Shown: piece by piece, positions 17,420 to 29,386 of the stretch
Layout: each line of letters starts with the position of its first letter
Numbering within the stretch: the first letter of the stretch is position 1
DNA from: Hyphomicrobiales bacterium
GTDB taxonomy: Bacteria > Pseudomonadota > Alphaproteobacteria > Rhizobiales > Rhizobiaceae
Direction: 5' to 3'
Assembly: GCA_021775455.1 (NCBI GenBank)
Contig: JAJFHU010000037.1
Span: 1-37,218 of the forward strand
DNA: 37,218 bases
The notes under the pieces: generated by a model
What the model was told of the DNA's origin: nothing
The model's database searches: none
What the model saw: the letters and a program-made list of their open reading frames with translations, nothing else
Program-made: the position numbers and the translations under genes

Positions 17420-18616
17420 ATGACCAACGCCAACACACAGATGACGTTTTCAAGATCGTGGCAGACGCCTACGGGTCTCTTGATGGCAATGGCAGCGGCC
17501 ATGCAGGTAGCATTCGCTGCCTGGATGTTGATGACCAACAACTTTGCTTACGAGACGCTGTCATTCACTGGACGCGAGATTGGTATCCAGCAAAGTGTAC
17601 GGGAAATCCCCGGATTTTTGTCGTTTGCAGCAGTGTTTCTTCTATTTCTGGCTCGTGAACAGACATTGGCCTACATATCGCTCATACTGCTTGGTGGCGC
17701 TGCTGCGGTAACCGGGTACTTCCCCAGTTTTACCGGCTTTTTGATAACCACATTTATTTCATCAATCGGATTTCACTATTACGAAACAATGCATCAATCG
17801 CTTTCGCTGCAATGGCTTCCAAAAGCTACTGCACCTGCGATCATGGGCAAGATTTTGGCAATTGGATCAATCTCACAATTGGTGTGTTTCGGATTTGTAT
17901 TTATTGCATGGTTCTGGATTGGAATGCATTTCAGCAGCATATATTTGGTAACCGGCCTGGCGACTGTGGTTGCCGTCATTGCCATGTGGGTAATGTTTCC
18001 ATCGTTTAAGGACGGCATTCCGCAACACAAGAAAATCATTCTGAGAAAACGCTACTGGTTGTATTATGCCCTGACCTTCATGGGCGGGGCTCGACGCCAG
18101 ATATTCATGGTGTTCGCCACATTCATGATGGTTGAACGATTTGGTTTTCAACTGCATGAAGTCGCGGCTCTGGCTATCGCCAACGGTATTCTGACGATGC
18201 TCTTTGCACCTCTTATCGGACAATGGATTGTACGTTTTGGTGAGCGGCGGATGCTGACTTGGGAATATATGGGCCTGATTGCCGTATTTATTGCATATGC
18301 CTGGGTTCCAAACTGGTGGATAGCAGTCGGGCTTTATCTAATCGATCATGTGTTATTTGCGGTTGCCATATCCATGAAAACCTATTTTCAGAAGATTGCA
18401 GATCCGGCTGATATAGCCCCAACAGCAGGCGTGGCGTTTACAATCAACCACATAGCTGCCGTATTTATACCGGTAATATTCGGATTGATCTGGATATGGA
18501 ACCCGGCTGCAGTGTTTTTGGCAGGGGCTGCCATGGCATTTGTGTCGTTGACGTTTGCCCGCATGGTACCAATATCACCGGAAACAGGTAATGAATTTGT
18601 ATGGAGCAAAGGCTAA
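17420..18616 (+). CDS. MFS transporter of unknown substrate
   Basis: 398 residues with about 12 hydrophobic helices and a short cytosolic loop in the middle (SFKDGIPQHKKIILRKRYW). A family-like cytoplasmic motif is IGQWIVRFGERRMLTW between helices 8 and 9. Aromatic residues are abundant. There is no feature that tells the substrate. AGGAG lies only 2 bases before ATG 17420; ATG 17441 is an alternative start. The next gene starts 35 bp after the stop. Confidence 0.82.
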   Translation: MTNANTQMTFSRSWQTPTGLLMAMAAAMQVAFAAWMLMTNNFAYETLSFTGREIGIQQSVREIPGFLSFAAVFLLFLAREQTLAYISLILLGGAAAVTGYFPSFTGFLITTFISSIGFHYYETMHQSLSLQWLPKATAPAIMGKILAIGSISQLVCFGFVFIAWFWIGMHFSSIYLVTGLATVVAVIAMWVMFPSFKDGIPQHKKIILRKRYWLYYALTFMGGARRQIFMVFATFMMVERFGFQLHEVAALAIANGILTMLFAPLIGQWIVRFGERRMLTWEYMGLIAVFIAYAWVPNWWIAVGLYLIDHVLFAVAISMKTYFQKIADPADIAPTAGVAFTINHIAAVFIPVIFGLIWIWNPAAVFLAGAAMAFVSLTFARMVPISPETGNEFVWSKG

Positions 18617-18650
18617 CAAGCTCTCCAAACGCGGTCGAAGCGAGGCAATA

Positions 18651-19226
18651 GTGAGACGATTGGGTGTAATTTGCGGATTTGCATTACTTGCCGCCTGTAC
18701 CAGTGTTGGGCAACGCACCCAATTGAGCGTTGGTTATTATATCGTGGAAGGGCAAACATTTAGTCAACTTGATCGGCAAATATTACTGCATGGTCCCAAT
18801 GTAGACGGTGTCGGGAAGGCACTCGCTGCAACCAACATTCGAATGGTTCCAGACATACACTTTGCGGAGCTTGGTGATCAATGCGTAGTCAAAAAGGCCC
18901 GAATCAATGTGAAAGCAAAAGTAACTCTTCCCCGACACGGCAATTTGAGAAGCGCACGCAGTGAACTGCGCAAAGCCTGGAACAATCTCAAGCGTTACGC
19001 GGAATTACATGAGGCCGTTCATGTAGCGATTGCAGACAAGTTTGCCCTTAAGGTGGAAAAAGCAATTCAAATCCTGGAACCGCAAAATAATTGCGATGCA
19101 ATGCGCAGTAAAGTGTTGGAAATCTCAAAACAAATTATGCTGGAGCACGAAGAAGCCCAGCAGAAATTTGACGATGACGAACAAATACGCATCAAGAAAC
19201 TTATCACAAAGCAGGAAAACAGCTGA
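18651..19226 (+). CDS. DUF922-type lipoprotein, putative zinc metalloprotease
   Basis: 191 residues. The lipoprotein signal MRRLGVICGFALLAAC-T has lipobox LAAC with Cys16. The domain has a thermolysin-like HEAVH (HExxH, His120-His124) in YAELHEAVHVAIADKFA, as in the DUF922 predicted secreted Zn-dependent proteases; the SVGYYIVEGQTFSQL start also fits. I chose GTG at 18651, which has GAGG 5 bases upstream and gives a proper lipoprotein signal; ATG 18591 and TTG 18555 lie inside the MFS gene. It is probably cotranscribed with the MFS gene. Protease activity is not proven for the family. Confidence 0.78.
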   Translation: MRRLGVICGFALLAACTSVGQRTQLSVGYYIVEGQTFSQLDRQILLHGPNVDGVGKALAATNIRMVPDIHFAELGDQCVVKKARINVKAKVTLPRHGNLRSARSELRKAWNNLKRYAELHEAVHVAIADKFALKVEKAIQILEPQNNCDAMRSKVLEISKQIMLEHEEAQQKFDDDEQIRIKKLITKQENS

Positions 19227-19343: not shown

Positions 19344-20456
19344 ATGAGCGAAAAAACTGTCGTCAATTCATGGAATGAATGGGATCCCCTAAAGCATGTA
19401 ATCGTAGGCAAGGCCGACGGTTGTTGTATTCCCCCACCAGAACCCGCGTTGGACGCAAAGGTTCCTGAAGACAGTGACATGCGCGGTCAATACGGCCCCC
19501 GCCCTCAGGAAACAGTAGACAAGGCAAATGAACTTCTGGACAATTTTGCAGACATACTTCGTAAACGCGGAATTCGGGTAGACCGCCCTACTCCGATGGA
19601 TTTCAATCAACACTCTTCCACACCGGATTGGCAAACTGATACCATGTTTGGATGCATGCCGCCGCGCGATGTGCTGCTGACTGTTGGTAGTGAAATCCTT
19701 GAAGCCACAATGTCGTACCGCTGTCGATGGTTTGAGTATCTGTGTTACCGGCCGCTTTTGCAGCAATATTGGGAAGAAGATCCAAAGATGCGCCATGAGT
19801 CAGCTCCCAAGCCAAGATTGACTGATGCGGATTACCGCCCGGATTATCTTTCAGACAAGATCGGCGTTGAAAAACGTCTTGAATGGACTGCGGACAAGTT
19901 TTTCGTAACCACCGAGGAAGAACCGCTGTTTGATGCTGCGGACGTACTGCGTTTTGGCAAAGATCTGGTAGTGCAACATGGTTTCACAACCAATTTGAAA
20001 GCAATCGAATGGCTGAGGCGCCACTTCCCGGATCATCGGGTTCATGCGGTAAATTTTCCTGGTGACCCTTACCCGATCCATATCGATGCAACTTTCACGC
20101 CCTTGAGGCCCGGCCTGATCATGAATAATCCGGAGCGTCGCCTGCCTGATGATCAGCGTGGAATGTTCGAACGCAATGGATGGGAAATTGTGGACTCAGC
20201 GCGCCCTGCACACAATTCACCGCCGCCACTTTGTTATTCATCGACTTGGCTTTCCATGAATGTTTTGGCACTGGACAGCAAAACCATCTGCGTTGAGGCT
20301 TCTGAAGTTCACCAGATGGACCAGCTCGACAAACTTGGCTTTGAGGTGGTTCCAGTTGGGCTTCGTGATGCCTACGCGTTTGGTGGTGGATTGCACTGTT
20401 GTACCGCAGATGTGTACCGCGAGGGAACCTGCGAGGATTATTTCCCGAAACAGTGA
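19344..20456 (+). CDS. L-arginine:glycine amidinotransferase-like enzyme
   Basis: 370-residue enzyme of the GATM/CyrA/SxtG amidinotransferase family, which moves the amidino group of arginine to an amine (glycine gives guanidinoacetate plus ornithine). The catalytic triad can be read by analogy with human AGAT: Asp197 in FDAADVLRFGKD, His246 in YPIHIDATF, and Cys352 in FGGGLHCCTADV. The N-terminus NSWNEWDPLKHVIVGKADG and the STWLSMNVLALD stretch are also family hallmarks. No signal peptide, so cytoplasmic. The flanking genes show no related pathway (no guanidinoacetate methyltransferase, NRPS or PKS). The acceptor amine is not certain. ATG 19344. Confidence 0.9.
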   Translation: MSEKTVVNSWNEWDPLKHVIVGKADGCCIPPPEPALDAKVPEDSDMRGQYGPRPQETVDKANELLDNFADILRKRGIRVDRPTPMDFNQHSSTPDWQTDTMFGCMPPRDVLLTVGSEILEATMSYRCRWFEYLCYRPLLQQYWEEDPKMRHESAPKPRLTDADYRPDYLSDKIGVEKRLEWTADKFFVTTEEEPLFDAADVLRFGKDLVVQHGFTTNLKAIEWLRRHFPDHRVHAVNFPGDPYPIHIDATFTPLRPGLIMNNPERRLPDDQRGMFERNGWEIVDSARPAHNSPPPLCYSSTWLSMNVLALDSKTICVEASEVHQMDQLDKLGFEVVPVGLRDAYAFGGGLHCCTADVYREGTCEDYFPKQ

Positions 20457-22012: not shown

Positions 22013-22102
22013 TCAAGAGCAAACCAATTTCCGAACTGCGTGGGTCATCAATGCAGCTTCGTGGAAACCCGATAAAATGAGCTTCAATTTTTTACGAAAG
22101 TA
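22013..22102 (-). pseudogene. Relic 3' end of a TrxB-like ferredoxin-NADP+ reductase gene
   Basis: Minus-strand translation gives KLKLILSGFHEAAL followed by MTHAVRKLVCS and a stop (22015-22013). This matches the C-terminus of the reductase at 24133-24729 (KLKLILSGFHEAAL, ATQAVRKVFG). Over 63 bp (22028-22090 against 24145-24207) I count 54 identical bases. Upstream of 22102 the frame soon meets a stop and the similarity fades. This is a duplicated, degraded gene end on the other side of the TPR-sulfotransferase gene. Confidence 0.85.
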
Positions 22103-22144: not shown

Positions 22145-24025
22145 TTAACCGGACAGAACAGCGGCCATAAAATCGCGATAAGGTGCGCTACTGTCACGAT
22201 CATCGCCTGATAATGTGACCTCCAAATCCGGTGTGGCAATGCCGCAAAGCCTGGCAACTGCATCAAGGGCGTGTTTTGGGTTTGCAACCATATCTTCGTA
22301 TTGGATCATGATACTGATTTCAGGATATTTTTTACAAAATACATCAATCATTTCATAGTACCAGCAAACGTGGTCGCGGATATTTACCAAGCTATATGCA
22401 TATGGATTTCCATACACAAACCGATGCATGAATATCCGTAGCATAACGTCTTCCAATGTGCGTTTAATGAATACAAATCGGCTATTTGGAATATGGTTTG
22501 TTGCAAACTCAACATAATTGATGTTGCGAGGATATGTGTTGGTAAAAATAGAATCATTCTCGACACGGGATTTCAATTCTGTCAGGTAATCAACCTTGAA
22601 AGACTCAACCTCGAAACCGGCATCTATTGAATACGGGCCTTCAATAGGCAAACCGGCTGATTGAAATCCACTTACCACAGCGCGTTCCAGTATGTCATTT
22701 TCAAAACCCCGCTTAACTCCGGGCAAACTGTTTGCAATGAGTTCCAGCGTAGATTTACCAGACCTTGAAGGCCCTAATATGTGAAGTGAAATTGGGATAC
22801 CCTCGATTAATTCGCTGCTTGTGGGTGCACCAGGTCCCTGCGATTTGCATTCCTCGAGAATTCCTGCATTTACCTTCATTTCTTTGGAGGCAATTTCGCT
22901 CAGATGTTTGTATTGCAGCTCGTTTGCCTGAATCAAACACTCCCATGCGTCCTTGTAACGTCCTTGATTGTGGTAAATTGCAGCTTTTGTGAAAGCGGCA
23001 ATCGAGTCAAAATTTTCCTGATCCTGACCAGGATTCGGAGATGCCTTGTCAATCAGCGGCAGGATATCTACGTTTATAAATCGGGCAGGAAGACGGCTAG
23101 TCGAGTAAAGATGTTCTATATCAATATTTTCCGGATTCCCCTGAATAGCATTTGAATAACTTTCCATCGCAGATTCCAATTCGCCAAGGTTTCTGAGCGA
23201 ATTACCCAAATTGTGATGTGCCTCAATACAGGAAGGATTGATTCTCAAAGCATTCCGATAAAAATCAATTGCCATATCATGATTACCGGCATCGGTGTGG
23301 ATCAACCCAAAATTGTTATGTGTATCTGGATCATCCGGATTGTATTGCAATACCATCTCCAAGGTGTTGATCGCTTCCTCGGATTTGCCTTGCAATCTCA
23401 ACACTCCTCCCAAATTGACATACGCATCTGTAAATCGGGGATTGATTTTGATAGCTTTTTTGTAACTGGTTGCAGCTTCTTCAAGTTCTCCCAATATTCT
23501 GTGAACCGTACCGAGATTGTTGTGTGCTTCGGGATAATCGGGTCTTAATGCCAGTGCTTTTTCAAAGGCGGGCACTGCAGTTTGTCCATCACCTGCATTG
23601 AGAAACGTAGTCCCAAGATTATTGTAAGCTTCGGCAAAATTGGGGCGAAGCTCGATTACCCTTTTGTAGCAGGCTATCGCTCTTTCATAATTTTTCATTG
23701 ATACATAGGCAGCCGCCAATATGTTGAACACCGGAAAAGACAGCGGAAACTGTCGGACAAGAACTCCACCGACCCGGATCACTTCGTTAAAATTACCGCG
23801 CTGAAACAGACCGAGAAGATTGTTGATTTGTTGTTGCGTTGGCCCCTTGCCAGGGTTACCGGAATTCTGACTTGGCATAGAAAGAGATTTCAGCCCCTGA
23901 ACGGCACGTTTGTTTTGCGGAAATCGTTGCAAAACCCACTGGTATAGCTCCGCAGCTGCTGAGGCCTCACCTTTTTTTGCAAGCCGTTTCGCCTTTGAAA
24001 GAATCTGATTAATTGACGTCGACAT
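22145..24025 (-). CDS. TPR-repeat sulfotransferase family protein
   Basis: 626 residues. The N-terminus MSTSINQILSKAKRLAKKGE is followed by about eight TPR units between residues 65 and 310 (for example AEAYNNLGTTFLNAGDGQTA and PEAHNNLGTVHRILGELEEA), a linker, and a C-terminal sulfotransferase domain from about residue 405 with the PAPS P-loop ILGPSRSGKSTLELIA and the second motif SRFVFIKRTLEDVMLRIFMHR. The TPR array probably positions a protein or glycan substrate. I chose ATG 24025; a TTG lies 15 bases upstream. Flanked on the left by a relic of the gene found on its right, so the locus has been rearranged. Confidence 0.87.
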   Translation of the reverse strand: MSTSINQILSKAKRLAKKGEASAAAELYQWVLQRFPQNKRAVQGLKSLSMPSQNSGNPGKGPTQQQINNLLGLFQRGNFNEVIRVGGVLVRQFPLSFPVFNILAAAYVSMKNYERAIACYKRVIELRPNFAEAYNNLGTTFLNAGDGQTAVPAFEKALALRPDYPEAHNNLGTVHRILGELEEAATSYKKAIKINPRFTDAYVNLGGVLRLQGKSEEAINTLEMVLQYNPDDPDTHNNFGLIHTDAGNHDMAIDFYRNALRINPSCIEAHHNLGNSLRNLGELESAMESYSNAIQGNPENIDIEHLYSTSRLPARFINVDILPLIDKASPNPGQDQENFDSIAAFTKAAIYHNQGRYKDAWECLIQANELQYKHLSEIASKEMKVNAGILEECKSQGPGAPTSSELIEGIPISLHILGPSRSGKSTLELIANSLPGVKRGFENDILERAVVSGFQSAGLPIEGPYSIDAGFEVESFKVDYLTELKSRVENDSIFTNTYPRNINYVEFATNHIPNSRFVFIKRTLEDVMLRIFMHRFVYGNPYAYSLVNIRDHVCWYYEMIDVFCKKYPEISIMIQYEDMVANPKHALDAVARLCGIATPDLEVTLSGDDRDSSAPYRDFMAAVLSG

Positions 24026-24132
24026 GTTATGAAGAACCAATTCTTCTTGGCAGGAAACGCCCGCTTATTGGCACGGTGTATATACGAGGTCAAGGACAGG
24101 TCGGGACTAGGGGTCGAGCAACCCGATAATCA

Positions 24133-24729
24133 CTAACCAAATACTTTCCGAACTGCCTGGGTGGCGAGAGCAGCTTCGTGGAAACCCGACAAGATGAGCT
24201 TCAATTTACCAGGATATGTGCACGCATCACCTATGGCATAAATGCCAGGCACCGAAGTCTGGAACTTCTCGGTGTCAACCTTGACAAGACCCTCTTGAAT
24301 TTCCAATCCAAAATTATTTACCGAATTGTTTTTTGATGATTTTCCAGTTTTGGTTCCCAAAATTCCAATCCCGGTAGTCACAATAACTGCAGTAGAAATG
24401 AACACTTCTCCATCGTTAGTTTTGACTTCAAATTTTCCATTGCCGGTTGAGTTTATTGCGGATACCTGCCGGTTGAAATGAAATTGCGGATCGTATGGCG
24501 CTGCCTGCTCCAACAGTCGTTCAACCAAATCTTCTGCGGTAATTTTTGGATATCCCGGAATGTCGTAAATCGGTTTATCGGAATAAAATGAAGATATTTG
24601 CCCCCCTGCATGGCTTGTTGCATCAATCAGATGACAACTCAATTTGAACAAACCAAGCTGAAACGCAGCAAAAAGCGCTACCGGCCCTGCACCAACTATT
24701 ACAACATCGGTTTCAATTACCGGCGTCAA
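24133..24729 (-). CDS. TrxB-like ferredoxin reductase lacking the NADPH-binding domain
   Basis: 198 residues against about 340 for full-length TrxB-like ferredoxin-NADP+ reductases. Residues 1-122 are the first half of the FAD domain (VVIVGAGPVALFAAFQLG, GGQISSFYSDKPIYDIPGYP, AVIVTTGIG) and residues 148-198 the second half (VKVDTEKFQTSVPGIYAIGD, ACTYPGKLKLILSGFHEAAL). The middle Rossmann domain with its GGGDSA-type nucleotide motif is absent and is replaced by a Ser/Asn-rich linker of about 25 residues (TKTGKSSKNNSVNNFGLEI). The frame is open throughout. The start is TTG 24729 after GGGAA. It lies 38 bp downstream of the ferredoxin gene. It may be a functional FAD protein using another partner or a decaying gene. 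Confidence 0.85.
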   Translation of the reverse strand: MTPVIETDVVIVGAGPVALFAAFQLGLFKLSCHLIDATSHAGGQISSFYSDKPIYDIPGYPKITAEDLVERLLEQAAPYDPQFHFNRQVSAINSTGNGKFEVKTNDGEVFISTAVIVTTGIGILGTKTGKSSKNNSVNNFGLEIQEGLVKVDTEKFQTSVPGIYAIGDACTYPGKLKLILSGFHEAALATQAVRKVFG

Positions 24730-24767
24730 ATTTCAATTCCCAACCGGGATATAGAAAAATTGGATAA

Positions 24768-25088
24768 TCAAGCCTGTTTTTCAGGTACGCGAACTATAAG
24801 TCCATCAAGCGCATCGCTGACCTTGATCTGACAGGACAATCGTGAATTGGGTTGAACCTCCCAGGCAAAATCAAGCATGTCTTCTTCCATTGCTTCCGGT
24901 GAACCAACGGTTTCTTTCCATGCATCATCCACATACACATGACAGGTTGCGCAGGCACAGGCACCACCACATTCTGCTTCGATTCCCGGCACAGAGTTTT
25001 TGATTGCCGTTTCCATAACCGTCGCGCCATTTGCGGCTTCAACTTCGAAACTATTTTCATCATGGGTGATGTATGTGATTTTGGCCAT
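24768..25088 (-). CDS. 2Fe-2S ferredoxin (adrenodoxin / FdVI type)
   Basis: 106 residues. The cluster cysteines are arranged C-x5-C-x2-C ([17 protein letters not shown]), with the last Cys in RLSCQIKV. It begins [21 protein letters not shown] and ends with [13 protein letters not shown], typical of the alphaproteobacterial FdxB/FdVI family that transfers electrons to P450s or serves Fe-S assembly. ATG 25088. Same strand and immediately upstream of the shortened reductase gene, suggesting that the two form an operon and may be redox partners. Confidence 0.94.
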
Positions 25089-25197: not shown

Positions 25198-25542
25198 TCA
25201 GGCTAATCGAGACGATTTACACCGGACTTCGTTGGCAAATACTGCTATTCGGTCCAACTCCGCAGCCAATTCCCAATTTTTGAATTTGGCGCTTCTTTCA
25301 GCCGCGGCAGCAAGTTCACTCAATTTTGTTGCACCAATACCTTTGGCTGCACCCTTTATCATGTGTGCAACCCGTTTGATTTCAATTGAATCAAGCGCCT
25401 CCATTGCCATCTTCTTGTAGATCGGAATCTGACTTAAAAACAGGTCTAGTACTTCGTCTCTGAGATTCTCGTCCCCCATCGTCTGGTGCGCAAGAAATTC
25501 AAGATCGACTGGATCTTCTGGATTGGCAATTCGGCTCGTCAT
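25198..25542 (-). CDS. Single-domain HPt phosphotransfer protein
   Basis: 114 residues forming one histidine phosphotransfer helix bundle. The phosphorylated His60 lies in VAHMIKGAAKGIGA, and the following helix KLSELAAAAERSAK is typical of the family. No kinase or receiver domain is attached. I chose ATG 25542; the frame is open to a TTG at 25593 without a good RBS. It is divergent from the GPR-like gene across a perfect CtrA box. It is distinct from ChpT, which is a dimeric pseudo-kinase of about 200 residues. Its phosphorelay partners are unknown; CckA and SixA-like proteins are encoded nearby. Confidence 0.88.
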   Translation of the reverse strand: MTSRIANPEDPVDLEFLAHQTMGDENLRDEVLDLFLSQIPIYKKMAMEALDSIEIKRVAHMIKGAAKGIGATKLSELAAAAERSAKFKNWELAAELDRIAVFANEVRCKSSRLA

Positions 25543-25690
25543 TTTGGGTCCATATTCAAACTTAGCATTGGTCAAGCCACACCCTTGCACCAAATTTAAA
25601 TACCCTGATTAGCGTGAATTACAGGTTAACAATTTTTGATTAGTTACCCGGGCAAGAAGGGTTTTCCCGGTATTGTGGTGCCCAACATGG

Positions 25691-25705: not shown

Positions 25706-25816
25706 CTTGCATGAACAAGTAAAGGCGATTTTCTTGTTCAAATCTTCAAAATGTGCCATTTACACCGTATGCGGTATTAACCCGTGGTGGGTTTTAATTT
25801 TTCAACGAGGCATAGT

Positions 25817-28800
25817 ATGGCGCGTGATGCCAAAAAGCAGGAAAAACCTGATGAAGGAGCTCTCAAGGCTCTTGAGGAAGCGTTGACCATCAACTTTGAT
25901 GATGATGCGGAAAATAATTCCCGGGAAATTTTCCCCGAAGTTTCTGTTGGAGAACCGGATTTTCAGGATCTGGAAGACAAACTTGCAGCCGCCGCGATGG
26001 ATCTGAACAGTGAATTGGACATTGCTTCAACTGAAGATCCAGCTCTTACCCATCCAAATCCCCAATCTGGAGTAGTCGCTGCCGAGAAGGTTTTTCCTTC
26101 TGATATGACACCAATTCCCGCCAATGATGAACACGACGAACAACTCGCGCGGCTTCATCATCTGTTGCAGAAAAAGGCATCCGCGCGTCCGCTTTGGATA
26201 GCTTCATTTCTATCCGTCATATGGTTGGCTATCTGCGGTTACTACATTTATGGCAGTTTACTTCCGACTTTGGATACCGGGAAGCCACTCCTCAATTTGA
26301 TTAGCGATCCAACATTTCAGCTGAGTGCAGTGGCAGTTGTCGCACCGCTGATGCTCTTCTGGGCGTTTGCAATTTTAGTACGCCGAACCCAGGAAATGCG
26401 AAATGCCGCCGCTTCGATGAGCGAGGCAGCACTGCGACTTCTAAGACCAGATGAAGTTGCAACCGACTCCATTACATCCGTTGGTCGTGCAATCCGCCGC
26501 GAAGTCGCGGCGATTGGAGATGGCGTAGAGCGGGCGATTGCGCGAGCCGGAGAGTTGGAATACCTCGTTCAAAACGAAGTAATGAATCTTGAGCGTTCAT
26601 ACGGAGACTCTGAATATCGGTTGAAAAATCTGGTGCACGAGATTTCAGCAGAACGCGAAGAGATTATTGGACATGCAGAAAAGCTGAAGAATTCAATATC
26701 ACAAAGCCACTTGGGGCTAACGAGTGAACTGGAGACTGCTGGTGGCAAGATTGAGGATACCGCGAGACAAATTGCAGATCAGTTGACGCAATCCCTGGAT
26801 ATGGGACGAGATACCTTGTCCTCCAGCCTGAATGAAACTGGCGCGACGCTTATCTCAACACTGACGACGACAACCGAAGAGCTGAATAAGCGAATAGAAG
26901 CTGGCAGGTCAGATCTGGAATCCAACATCAGTTTAAAAGCGGGCGAAATTTCGGAAGTAATTAAGAGCGCTGGCAATGCAGTCGCCACACTTATTGATAC
27001 ACAGTCGGTCAATCTACAACAACAAAACAACCAGGTAACCCGCCAACTTGAGGATGCGCTGGCAATGCGTTCCAGCGAATTTGAAAGCCGCGTAAAGGAA
27101 GCCGGAGAAGTAGTTGAAGCAACTCTTAATGCCAAACTCAATGCAATTGATGCCAGTCTCAAGACCGGTGGCAGCAATCTTGTTGCTGCGCTTGGTACGC
27201 GCAGTGAAGCACTGGACAAGCTACTGAAAAAAAGGACCGACGCGATTGGAGAAGCGCTTGAAATTCGTTCAACCGAATTCAGCAGCCGTATCGCCGAAGC
27301 CGGTGAGCAAGTTCAGAATCAGATCGACATAAAACTTGATGCAATTGATGCAAGTGTAAAATCAGGCGGCAGTCAGTTGGTCGCTGCACTTGGCACTAAA
27401 ACAGAAGAACTTGATAAAGTACTGAAAAACAGCAGTGAGGCCATTGGCAAGACAATGGAAGGCCGCCTTTCAGGTTTTGATACCGCGCTAACCGGGCACG
27501 TGAATAGCGCTGTTGAGAAAATGCAGGCGCAGACGCTGACTTTGGAGCGAAACACCCGTGCAGTTGGTGATATCATAACGAAGCGAACAAAAAGCGTTGA
27601 AAACGTTATTAAGCAAGGCACGATTGATCTCGCGAAGACCATTGACGATAGCGTGGATATGATTTCCACCAAATCCACTGACATGACGAATGTGTTGGCG
27701 CAACGTGCGAATGCCATTCATGAAAGCCTGGGTGAGAATCTTGCTGCTTCTCAACGAACTTTGGAAGATAAAACAAAAGAGTTCAACGACCTCCTTTCCA
27801 ACCGCATGAATGAACTTTCGGGTATCATTGAGAATGATGCGAAGCCGGTGGTGACTGCAATCGAGAGCGCAGGTAAAGCAGTTAACAACAAGATTACCTC
27901 CACGCATAATCAAATCGCAAATGAATCAAATGTATTGTTTGCACGATTGGGAGATTCGACAGATCTACTCAAGACCTTGATTGAGAAATCATCCTTCAAC
28001 CTCGGCAAGATGCAAAAGGATCTGGACGCCGGTTCCCGACGTTTCGCAGAGTCAGTTGTAGACACCAAAAGGAAGATTGAGCAATCCAGCGAAATTGCAC
28101 AAACCGTTGAAAGTAACCTGTCCGCCACGTCATCCCATTTGCTGGAAGGTATGCAAAAAATTGCAGATAATTTAAATGAACAAAGCAATTTCCTTCAGGA
28201 TGCAACCCGCGTAATTGATGCCGCCCAAACCAACTTTGAATCGACACTGGAATCAAAACAGGAAGATTTGGAGAAACTTGCGGTTGGGCTGGTTGCCCGT
28301 AGTGATGAAATTATCAAAACCATGTCGTCGTTTGGCAACATGATCACAGCGATGATTGATGACGTAAACCAGAGAACCGCGGGCGTGGGTGGTGCGGTTT
28401 CAGCTGAAGTTTCTGCGGCAATTGACGATGCAACTGGTCGTTTTTCTGAAGCAGTTGAAGCAATGCGAGGTGCAGCGGCAACAGTTCGCAATGAACTTGA
28501 TGAAACCCGCATCCAGATGCGTCGTGGAGTTCTGGAACTACCGGACGAAACACACAAAAGTGCTACAGCAATGCGCAGGGTTGTCGCCGATCAGGTTGCT
28601 GCATTGCAGGAGCTTTCCGAAATTGTTCAAAAATCAGGGAAAATGTTGGACGCAACCGCCGCTCCAACGCTAAGCGCGCCACCGCAATCAGCACAATCAT
28701 CCGAGGCGGCAGCCCCTGCACAACGGCAGTTTCCACCACGCACTGCATTATCAAGTCAGTCCGTGCCACCGCCTATGCCACCAAGGAATACTCCGCTAAG

Positions 28801-29386
28801 GCCCGTTAGTCAGCAAGCACCCGCACCGGCAAATGCACCAAATGTTGGAACCCAATTGCGGGGATCTGCAGATCCAGTTACTGCTTATGCCCCTCCACAA
28901 GCACCGGTCAATCCGCAAAAGGAAGGATGGGTCAGTGATTTGTTGCGGCGCGCTTCCACCACAGACTCACAAGGAAATAGCACGCAACAACAAACGCCGC
29001 AGTCGGCACCGCAGAACCCTGCACGCTCACCACTCCATGTCGTTGAATCATTGAATTCACTTTCGATGGATATTGCGCGGGCAATTGATCACGAGACTTC
29101 TGTAGATTTGTGGGAGCGCTATCAGCGAGGTGAGAGAAACGTATTCACTCGCAAGCTTTACACCATGCAAGGGCAGCAGGCATTTGATGAAATCTCCGGC
29201 AAATACCAGCAGGAAGCAGAATTTCGCGCTGCTGTGGATCGTTACGTTGACGATTTTGAGCAACTTCTTAGCGATGTTGCGCAAAATGATCGTGACAACA
29301 TGATGACTCAAACCTACCTGACTTCAGACACTGGCAAAGTCTATACCATGCTTGCACATGCCTCTGGCAGACTGGGTAACGGATAA
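25817..29386 (+). CDS. Large membrane coiled-coil protein, growth pole ring (GPR/RgsE)-like
   Basis: 1189 residues. An acidic N-terminal region (1-120) is followed by two TM helices (about 126-146 and 165-185) and then a very long alpha-helical, apolipoprotein-like coiled coil (about 190-940) containing 66-residue repeats. A Pro/Ala/Gln-rich linker (950-1060) leads to a conserved C-terminal domain (about 1072-1189) with DIARAIDHETSVDLWERYQR, GERNVFTRKLYTMQGQQAFD and YLTSDTGKVYTMLAHASGRL. That end and overall plan match the growth pole ring proteins of Agrobacterium and Sinorhizobium, which organise unipolar growth, although those are nearly twice as long. ATG 25817 (CGAGG 7 bases upstream) was chosen over GTG 25784. 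A CtrA box lies upstream. Confidence 0.8.
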   Translation: MARDAKKQEKPDEGALKALEEALTINFDDDAENNSREIFPEVSVGEPDFQDLEDKLAAAAMDLNSELDIASTEDPALTHPNPQSGVVAAEKVFPSDMTPIPANDEHDEQLARLHHLLQKKASARPLWIASFLSVIWLAICGYYIYGSLLPTLDTGKPLLNLISDPTFQLSAVAVVAPLMLFWAFAILVRRTQEMRNAAASMSEAALRLLRPDEVATDSITSVGRAIRREVAAIGDGVERAIARAGELEYLVQNEVMNLERSYGDSEYRLKNLVHEISAEREEIIGHAEKLKNSISQSHLGLTSELETAGGKIEDTARQIADQLTQSLDMGRDTLSSSLNETGATLISTLTTTTEELNKRIEAGRSDLESNISLKAGEISEVIKSAGNAVATLIDTQSVNLQQQNNQVTRQLEDALAMRSSEFESRVKEAGEVVEATLNAKLNAIDASLKTGGSNLVAALGTRSEALDKLLKKRTDAIGEALEIRSTEFSSRIAEAGEQVQNQIDIKLDAIDASVKSGGSQLVAALGTKTEELDKVLKNSSEAIGKTMEGRLSGFDTALTGHVNSAVEKMQAQTLTLERNTRAVGDIITKRTKSVENVIKQGTIDLAKTIDDSVDMISTKSTDMTNVLAQRANAIHESLGENLAASQRTLEDKTKEFNDLLSNRMNELSGIIENDAKPVVTAIESAGKAVNNKITSTHNQIANESNVLFARLGDSTDLLKTLIEKSSFNLGKMQKDLDAGSRRFAESVVDTKRKIEQSSEIAQTVESNLSATSSHLLEGMQKIADNLNEQSNFLQDATRVIDAAQTNFESTLESKQEDLEKLAVGLVARSDEIIKTMSSFGNMITAMIDDVNQRTAGVGGAVSAEVSAAIDDATGRFSEAVEAMRGAAATVRNELDETRIQMRRGVLELPDETHKSATAMRRVVADQVAALQELSEIVQKSGKMLDATAAPTLSAPPQSAQSSEAAAPAQRQFPPRTALSSQSVPPPMPPRNTPLRPVSQQAPAPANAPNVGTQLRGSADPVTAYAPPQAPVNPQKEGWVSDLLRRASTTDSQGNSTQQQTPQSAPQNPARSPLHVVESLNSLSMDIARAIDHETSVDLWERYQRGERNVFTRKLYTMQGQQAFDEISGKYQQEAEFRAAVDRYVDDFEQLLSDVAQNDRDNMMTQTYLTSDTGKVYTMLAHASGRLGNG
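27065..27460 (+). repeat. Two 198-bp in-frame tandem repeats in the GPR-like gene
   Basis: 27065-27262 and 27263-27460 encode two 66-residue units with shared segments RSxEFxSRxxEAGE, LxAIDASxKxGGSxLVAALG and LDKxLK. The nucleotide sequence GCAATTGATGC recurs 198 bp apart (27143 and 27341). They are the best-preserved part of a longer, more diverged repeat array. Confidence 0.85.

Follow-up and report, generated by a model that had tools for sequence, protein, structure and literature searches.

Reductases of the thioredoxin-reductase (TrxR)-type fold are known as proteins of two domains, one for FAD and one for NAD(P)H, and in the ferredoxin-NADP+ reductase (FNR) of B. subtilis a C-terminal extension takes part in the contacts with both NADP(H) and ferredoxin. 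The reference structure for the alignments below is PDB entry 5ygq, which we take to be RPA3954 of R. palustris. The R. palustris FNR has an FAD domain made of residues 2–122 and 255–344, with the NADP(H) domain at residues 127–250 (PMC9137726, in extract). The B. subtilis enzyme stacks Tyr50 against the si-face of FAD and hydrogen-bonds N3 through Asp57 (PMC10526003, in extract).

The window, i.e. the whole stretch of 37,218 nucleotides that was analysed, contains a much shorter relative of these enzymes, and the features relevant to it are:

24133..24729, minus strand: FNR lacking the NADPH domain, 198 aa, TTG start (open frame, domain alignments)
24768..25088, minus strand: FdVI/putidaredoxin-type 2Fe-2S ferredoxin, 106 aa (PF00111 over cut-off)
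25198..25593, minus strand: Hpt-domain protein, upstream of the ferredoxin (family recognised in 9/21 contexts)
22145..24040, minus strand: TPR-sulfotransferase gene that separates the remnant from the short FNR (none similar in the other 20 contexts)
22025..22099, minus strand: 25-codon remnant of an FNR C-terminal end, without C-terminal extension
18555..19226, plus strand: DUF922 gene (frequent neighbour of the family's ferredoxin-FNR site by BLAST linkage)

The coordinates, strand, 198-residue length and open frame that the first-pass annotation gave for the short gene are all correct, and the GAGP, GGQ and IGD motifs it named are present. The protein consists of a first FAD half (residues ~1–124), a linker (~125–135) and a second FAD half (~136–198), and ends without a C-terminal extension. 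It aligns with 5ygq at residues 2–123 and 251–318, and a profile built from 24 short forms aligns at 1–128 and 253–341; residues ~129–252 (5ygq numbering), corresponding to the NADP(H)-binding domain, are absent from all 24. Because these alignments coincide with the published domains, the absent segment is the NADP(H) domain, with cuts close to the domain boundaries, which confirms the earlier reading that both FAD halves had been kept and the pyridine-nucleotide domain was gone. The Ser/Asn-rich linker reported there is real in the window protein, but alignment of the 24 short forms indicates that it is peculiar to this genome. Compared with a thioredoxin-reductase-type FNR (EC 1.18.1.2), the short FNR has both FAD-domain halves with intact motifs and lacks the NADP(H)-binding domain. 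Cys32 and Cys170 are the only cysteines of the window protein, which has no second domain, and the CxxC disulfide that ferredoxin-dependent flavin thioredoxin reductase (FFTR) carries in such a domain was not found in it. Neither Pfam nor NCBIfam holds a family of its own for the short FNR; only parts of Pyr_redox_2 and of other FAD families match, and each of the listed NCBIfam matches scores under its own cut-off.

Contiguous matches in three other genera (E 1e-47 to 1e-55) argue that the window gene is not a product of chance. An assembly error was considered and rejected, given the open frame, the synteny of the neighbourhood and the repetition of the short form in separate genomes. Among the own genome and 60 relatives the contiguous short form is present in four of 61, and no full-length FNR was seen in G000, G021, G025 and G026, with all candidates scored. 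Within the family, taken here to be the Rhizobiaceae of GTDB, 153 of 394 genomes match at 1e-15; of these, 24 have a single contiguous short match and 129 have two or four matches, and the remaining 241 genomes match neither form at that limit. The 129 genomes counted as full-length are those with two or four matches, split hits among the matches listed, and they include short frames in G333 and G229 and an odd range in G306. The 24 short-form genomes, in each of which the short frame is open, span ten genera: g1 (window only), g11, g15, g16 (five genomes), g52 (two), g78 (seven), g81, g99, g108 (four) and g125. None of the 394 genomes matches as both short and full-length, a count that rests on seven candidates scored per genome and is not proof. 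Named short forms are those of Rhizobium sp. GN54, Brucella cytisi and two Rhizobiales isolates, two of which have the same protein sequence as the copies in G294 and G178. Outside the family, no contiguous short form was found in samples of the order (397 and 297), the class (385) and the phylum (309); two of these searches had a limit of 1e-53, which would miss part of the g108 type, and the other two used the profile of the 24 short forms at 1e-48. From family to phylum, 7–10 candidates per genome were scored. Plasmids gave three partial matches and no short form. The first-pass annotation had allowed for a strain-specific deletion, should the close relatives all carry a full-length gene here. 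In the genus of the window only G008 has a full-length FNR at this site and the other ten relatives examined have neither form, several genomes being incomplete; short forms are, moreover, present in 23 genomes of nine other genera, and the short form is therefore not specific to one strain. The sequences show that the NADP(H) domain was lost from an FNR of the thioredoxin-reductase type and that what remained, the FAD domain, has been maintained in one family as a conserved protein.

A NADPH domain might still be supplied in trans by another protein, in which case the pair would remain an NADPH-dependent FNR. Such a split is conceivable given that the domains of low-weight thioredoxin reductases are joined by two antiparallel strands (PMC12796991, in extract), but it is exceedingly improbable here: out of 45 PF07992 matches in the own genome only the window gene lies in a frame of fewer than 300 codons, and no NADPH-domain gene was recognised beside the short gene except that of Fpr, a plant-type NADPH:ferredoxin reductase, in g108.

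The residues Gly13, Gly15, Gly42-Gly43-Gln44, Tyr49, Asp56, Gly167-Asp168, Lys175 and His184-Glu185-Ala186 are invariant in all 24 short forms, and Tyr49 and Asp56 align, with an offset of one, with Tyr50 and Asp57 of the B. subtilis enzyme. The C-terminal extension, judged by eye on the alignment, is present in 16 short forms, partial in one and absent in seven (the window, G025 and five of g16). We infer that the short protein would fold as an FAD flavoprotein that no longer uses NADPH.

Trees built on the FAD columns separate the short forms, as a single clade, from the full-length FNRs (SH-aLRT 98; 74 rows, 24 short), and a careful tree gives this clade UFboot/SH-aLRT values of 100/98 (58 rows, 20 short); the short-form branches are long and unequal. 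The 24 short rows of the larger tree and of the residue comparison represent 23 of the 24 genomes (without G178) plus the Brucella cytisi copy. The full-length rows derive from 93 given loci, with 15 that did not match the pattern and three duplicates left out, and the careful tree omits 16 of the 74 rows, including the short forms of G025, G256, G294 and G405. Short forms carry Ala18, Gln24, Ala169 and Cys170 where most full-length FNRs have Gly, Glu, Ile and Asn. Gln24 is found in 24/24 short forms versus 3/50 full-length proteins, and Ala169 in 22/24 versus 0/50. Cys170 (19/20) and Ala18 (18/20) characterize the ferredoxin-linked short forms, with 0/4 each in the Fpr-linked ones and 3/50 each in full-length proteins. 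It could be argued that the window gene arose within its genus by deletion from a G008-type full-length gene, that the other short forms arose separately and that long branches mimic one clade. In this direction point the full-length gene that G008 keeps at the same site, the different linkers of the short-form lineages and an AU test that does not reject the window and the G008 full-length protein as a clade (p 0.413). Nevertheless, the window and G008 ferredoxins are 91% identical and the FAD halves only 52% and 60%, which is far for a recent deletion; with the single short-form clade in both quick and careful trees and the shared substitutions that are rare in full-length forms, independent deletions appear quite improbable.

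The ferredoxin encoded upstream has a Fer2 domain that contains CX5CX2C and another Cys, as expected of the FdVI/putidaredoxin type. Among solved structures its best match is 3hui (E 1.1e-47), ferredoxin VI following at 2e-35, and against the ISC ferredoxin equivalog TIGR02007 it reaches 72.7 bits, the curated cut-off being 132.1. From its stop to the start of the short FNR there are 38 bp, in agreement with the annotation, and the pairing, whose conservation the annotation suggested checking, recurs in related genomes: 20 of the 24 have the short gene directly behind a ferredoxin, at a spacing of −23 to 153 bp. A ferredoxin also lies no more than 250 bp from the full-length FNR in 45 of 59 readable loci (from 65, six of which did not match the pattern), and ferredoxin-FNR therefore looks like the old arrangement. 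The ferredoxin neighbourhood of the short form is inherited from the full-length FNR and alone is weak evidence of function. In a comparison of 19 short-linked, 42 full-linked and 14 unlinked ferredoxins (read from 19, 44 and 21 loci, respectively), restricted to columns more than 70% conserved in both groups, no well-conserved residue separates short-linked from full-linked copies, so there is no sign of ferredoxin co-adaptation.

The slot behind the ferredoxin holds a full-length FNR, a short FNR or neither in the 21 contexts compared, and the one genus of the window, with the contexts L231, L232, L233, L234 and L236, shows all three states: short (window), full-length (G008) and no FNR. These three states within a genus suggest recombination or loss at the site. 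Over 63 bp the DNA of the remnant at 22025..22099 is 85.7% identical to the last part of the short gene; a second short copy probably ended here, its tail perhaps left behind by the event that placed the TPR-sulfotransferase gene at this site. Other genes surround the locus. A coiled-coil-like gene of 1200 codons (25784–29386, plus strand) has Apolipoprotein-domain similarity below the Pfam cut-off, and its family is found near the site in 17/21 contexts. A gene of 370 codons (19344–20456, plus strand), presumably for an amidinotransferase, has weak Arginine deiminase-domain similarity below cut-off and relatives near the locus in four genomes of the same genus.

In genus g108 the arrangement is different. 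In all four genomes the short gene lies directly behind the gene of a plant-type Fpr, with 29 to 41 bases between the matches, and the ferredoxin gene is elsewhere in the genome; the genetic partner of the short gene has changed here from ferredoxin to Fpr. The fpr-short stretches span 4194–5677 in L237, 7353–8833 in L254, 6623–8118 in L255 and about 4626–6091 in L256. The gene order is cysG, cysI, DUF934, fpr and short FNR in G349 and G413, and only fpr and the short gene were recognised in G118 and G256. The Fpr of the own genome matches the FPR structure 2bgi, which we take to be from R. capsulatus, at E 1.3e-130. Among 76 hand-picked genomes, searched at a limit of 1e-20 (the match in G013 is partial), Fpr is present in 24/24 with the short form, 19/19 with neither form and 22/33 with a full-length FNR. 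All 11 genomes without Fpr have a full-length FNR, and Fpr is present in 43/43 without one. As to the presence of Fpr, the short form behaves like the absence of FNR, and on these counts it does not appear to be a replacement for an NADPH:ferredoxin reductase. Since 241 of 394 family genomes match neither form and all 16 of these that were examined have Fpr, the short protein is dispensable for core ferredoxin use.

The selective constraint on the short family was estimated from 50 pairs that cover g52, g78, g81/g99, g108 and g16, the last together with two named relatives; there is no value for the window gene or for g11, g15 and g125. Values of dN/dS are 0.08–0.35 in 46 pairs, and four pairs yield none; ferredoxin-linked pairs range from 0.08 to 0.26 and g108 pairs from 0.20 to 0.35. 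For comparison, seven full-length FNR pairs give 0.04–0.07 and ferredoxins 0–0.11. Most short pairs have dS >1, and the nine with dS <1 give 0.10–0.26. With 0.08–0.35 against 0.04–0.07, the short family is constrained, by this estimate about three times less than its full-length parent. This laxer constraint is what would be expected if the short form were a relic, an FNR that can still fold after the deletion of a domain but does little, and that is gradually disappearing now that Fpr has taken over its work; the Fpr found with every short form, the long and unequal branches, the many family genomes with neither form and the remnant of another FNR copy in the window agree with it. However, a relic is unlikely in view of the frame open in all 24 short forms, the dN/dS of 0.08–0.35 in measured pairs from six genera, the near fixation of Gln24 and Ala169 and the g108 short gene kept in a new position directly behind Fpr. 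Because the short form recurs in ten genera beside electron-carrier partners, the gene is probably intact in function and encodes a flavoprotein that has taken on a different task.

Its gene adjoins that of ferredoxin in nine genera and that of Fpr in one, and the short protein therefore most likely works on the Fpr-ferredoxin chain. The earlier idea of a compact FAD-ferredoxin couple drawing on electrons other than those of NADPH is borne out in part, in the gene order of the 20 genomes and in the loss of the NADPH domain; if the short protein is redox-active, its electrons must come from elsewhere than NADPH because that domain is missing. Fpr, being the partner gene in g108 and present in every short-form genome, suggests a chain from NADPH through Fpr and ferredoxin to the short protein. 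We consider it an even chance that the protein is a flavoprotein fed by this chain and passing electrons to an acceptor via its FAD. In such a scheme Fpr would use NADPH to reduce the 2Fe-2S ferredoxin; the short protein would dock reduced ferredoxin through the old FNR surface and collect single electrons on its FAD; and an acceptor reaching the flavin face once used by nicotinamide would take them over. Sulfite reductase (CysI), a lead that comes from the cysG-cysI-DUF934-fpr operon of g108, might be the acceptor, as might some other reaction in the metabolism of sulfur or of iron-sulfur centres. A ferredoxin-dependent sulfite reductase of R. pomeroyi has been assayed with Fd, FNR and NADPH (PMC13188885, in extract).

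The protein might, on the other hand, act as a redox reader that binds FAD and ferredoxin (or Fpr) and has no metabolic acceptor, its redox state or docking reporting on the ferredoxin pool or modulating Fpr-ferredoxin traffic. The short gene adjoins either member of the Fpr-ferredoxin pair, no dedicated acceptor gene was recognised travelling with it in the contexts compared, the Hpt gene lies near the ferredoxin in 9 of 21 contexts, and ThnY is a published ferredoxin reductase acting as a regulator (PMC3771892, in extract). Yet no DNA-binding or signalling domain was found in the window protein, the Hpt family is not specific, being near the site with a short FNR, a full-length one (G008) or none, and ThnY is a different kind of protein. 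A reader is thus rather unlikely, and for a protein on the Fpr-ferredoxin chain the role of an electron acceptor from ferredoxin is favoured.

With somewhat less than even confidence, the short proteins can be proposed as a separate class of ferredoxin-driven flavoenzymes: a lone FAD domain in series with Fpr, its vacated nicotinamide face serving a substrate or partner that the parent enzyme did not have, perhaps one of sulfite assimilation. If so, a further ferredoxin-consuming step would be added to soil and plant-associated bacteria. If an old excision left a conserved FAD-only descendant, it would also be a natural experiment on the FAD domain alone, and with ten genera and full-length sisters at the same site the question is directly testable. 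An FNR devoid of the NADPH domain was not found described in the literature searched, partly among the matches listed and with subscription journals thinly covered.

Among known systems, the thioredoxin-reductase-type (homodimeric) FNRs of R. palustris (5ygq) and B. subtilis (3lzw/3lzx) are the most similar. The short protein shares with them both FAD halves, the GAGP, GGQ and IGD motifs with the next helix, the si-face Tyr, the N3-contacting Asp and the gene position behind a 2Fe-2S ferredoxin. It differs in the missing NADP(H) domain and, in the window copy, in the missing C-terminal extension that covers the FAD re-face; by the test of the NADP(H) domain, the predicted protein is no longer an FNR of this type. 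FFTR is likewise a TrxR-fold flavoprotein that has ferredoxin as electron source and cannot use NADPH (PMC12796991, in extract), the ferredoxin supply of the short protein being a proposal. FFTR, however, keeps an NADPH-like domain and, in it, CxxC, both of which the short protein lacks. ThnY of Sphingomonas macrogolitabida, a regulator of tetralin degradation controlled by a ferredoxin, is also a ferredoxin-reductase-like flavoprotein (PMC3771892, in extract). It differs in being an iron-sulfur flavoprotein, composed of a 2Fe-2S, an FAD and an NAD(P)H domain. The folds of ThnY and of plant-type Fpr are not known to be related to that of the short protein. Fpr, the proposed feeder of the same ferredoxin and the adjacent gene in g108, keeps the NADPH domain that the short protein has lost.
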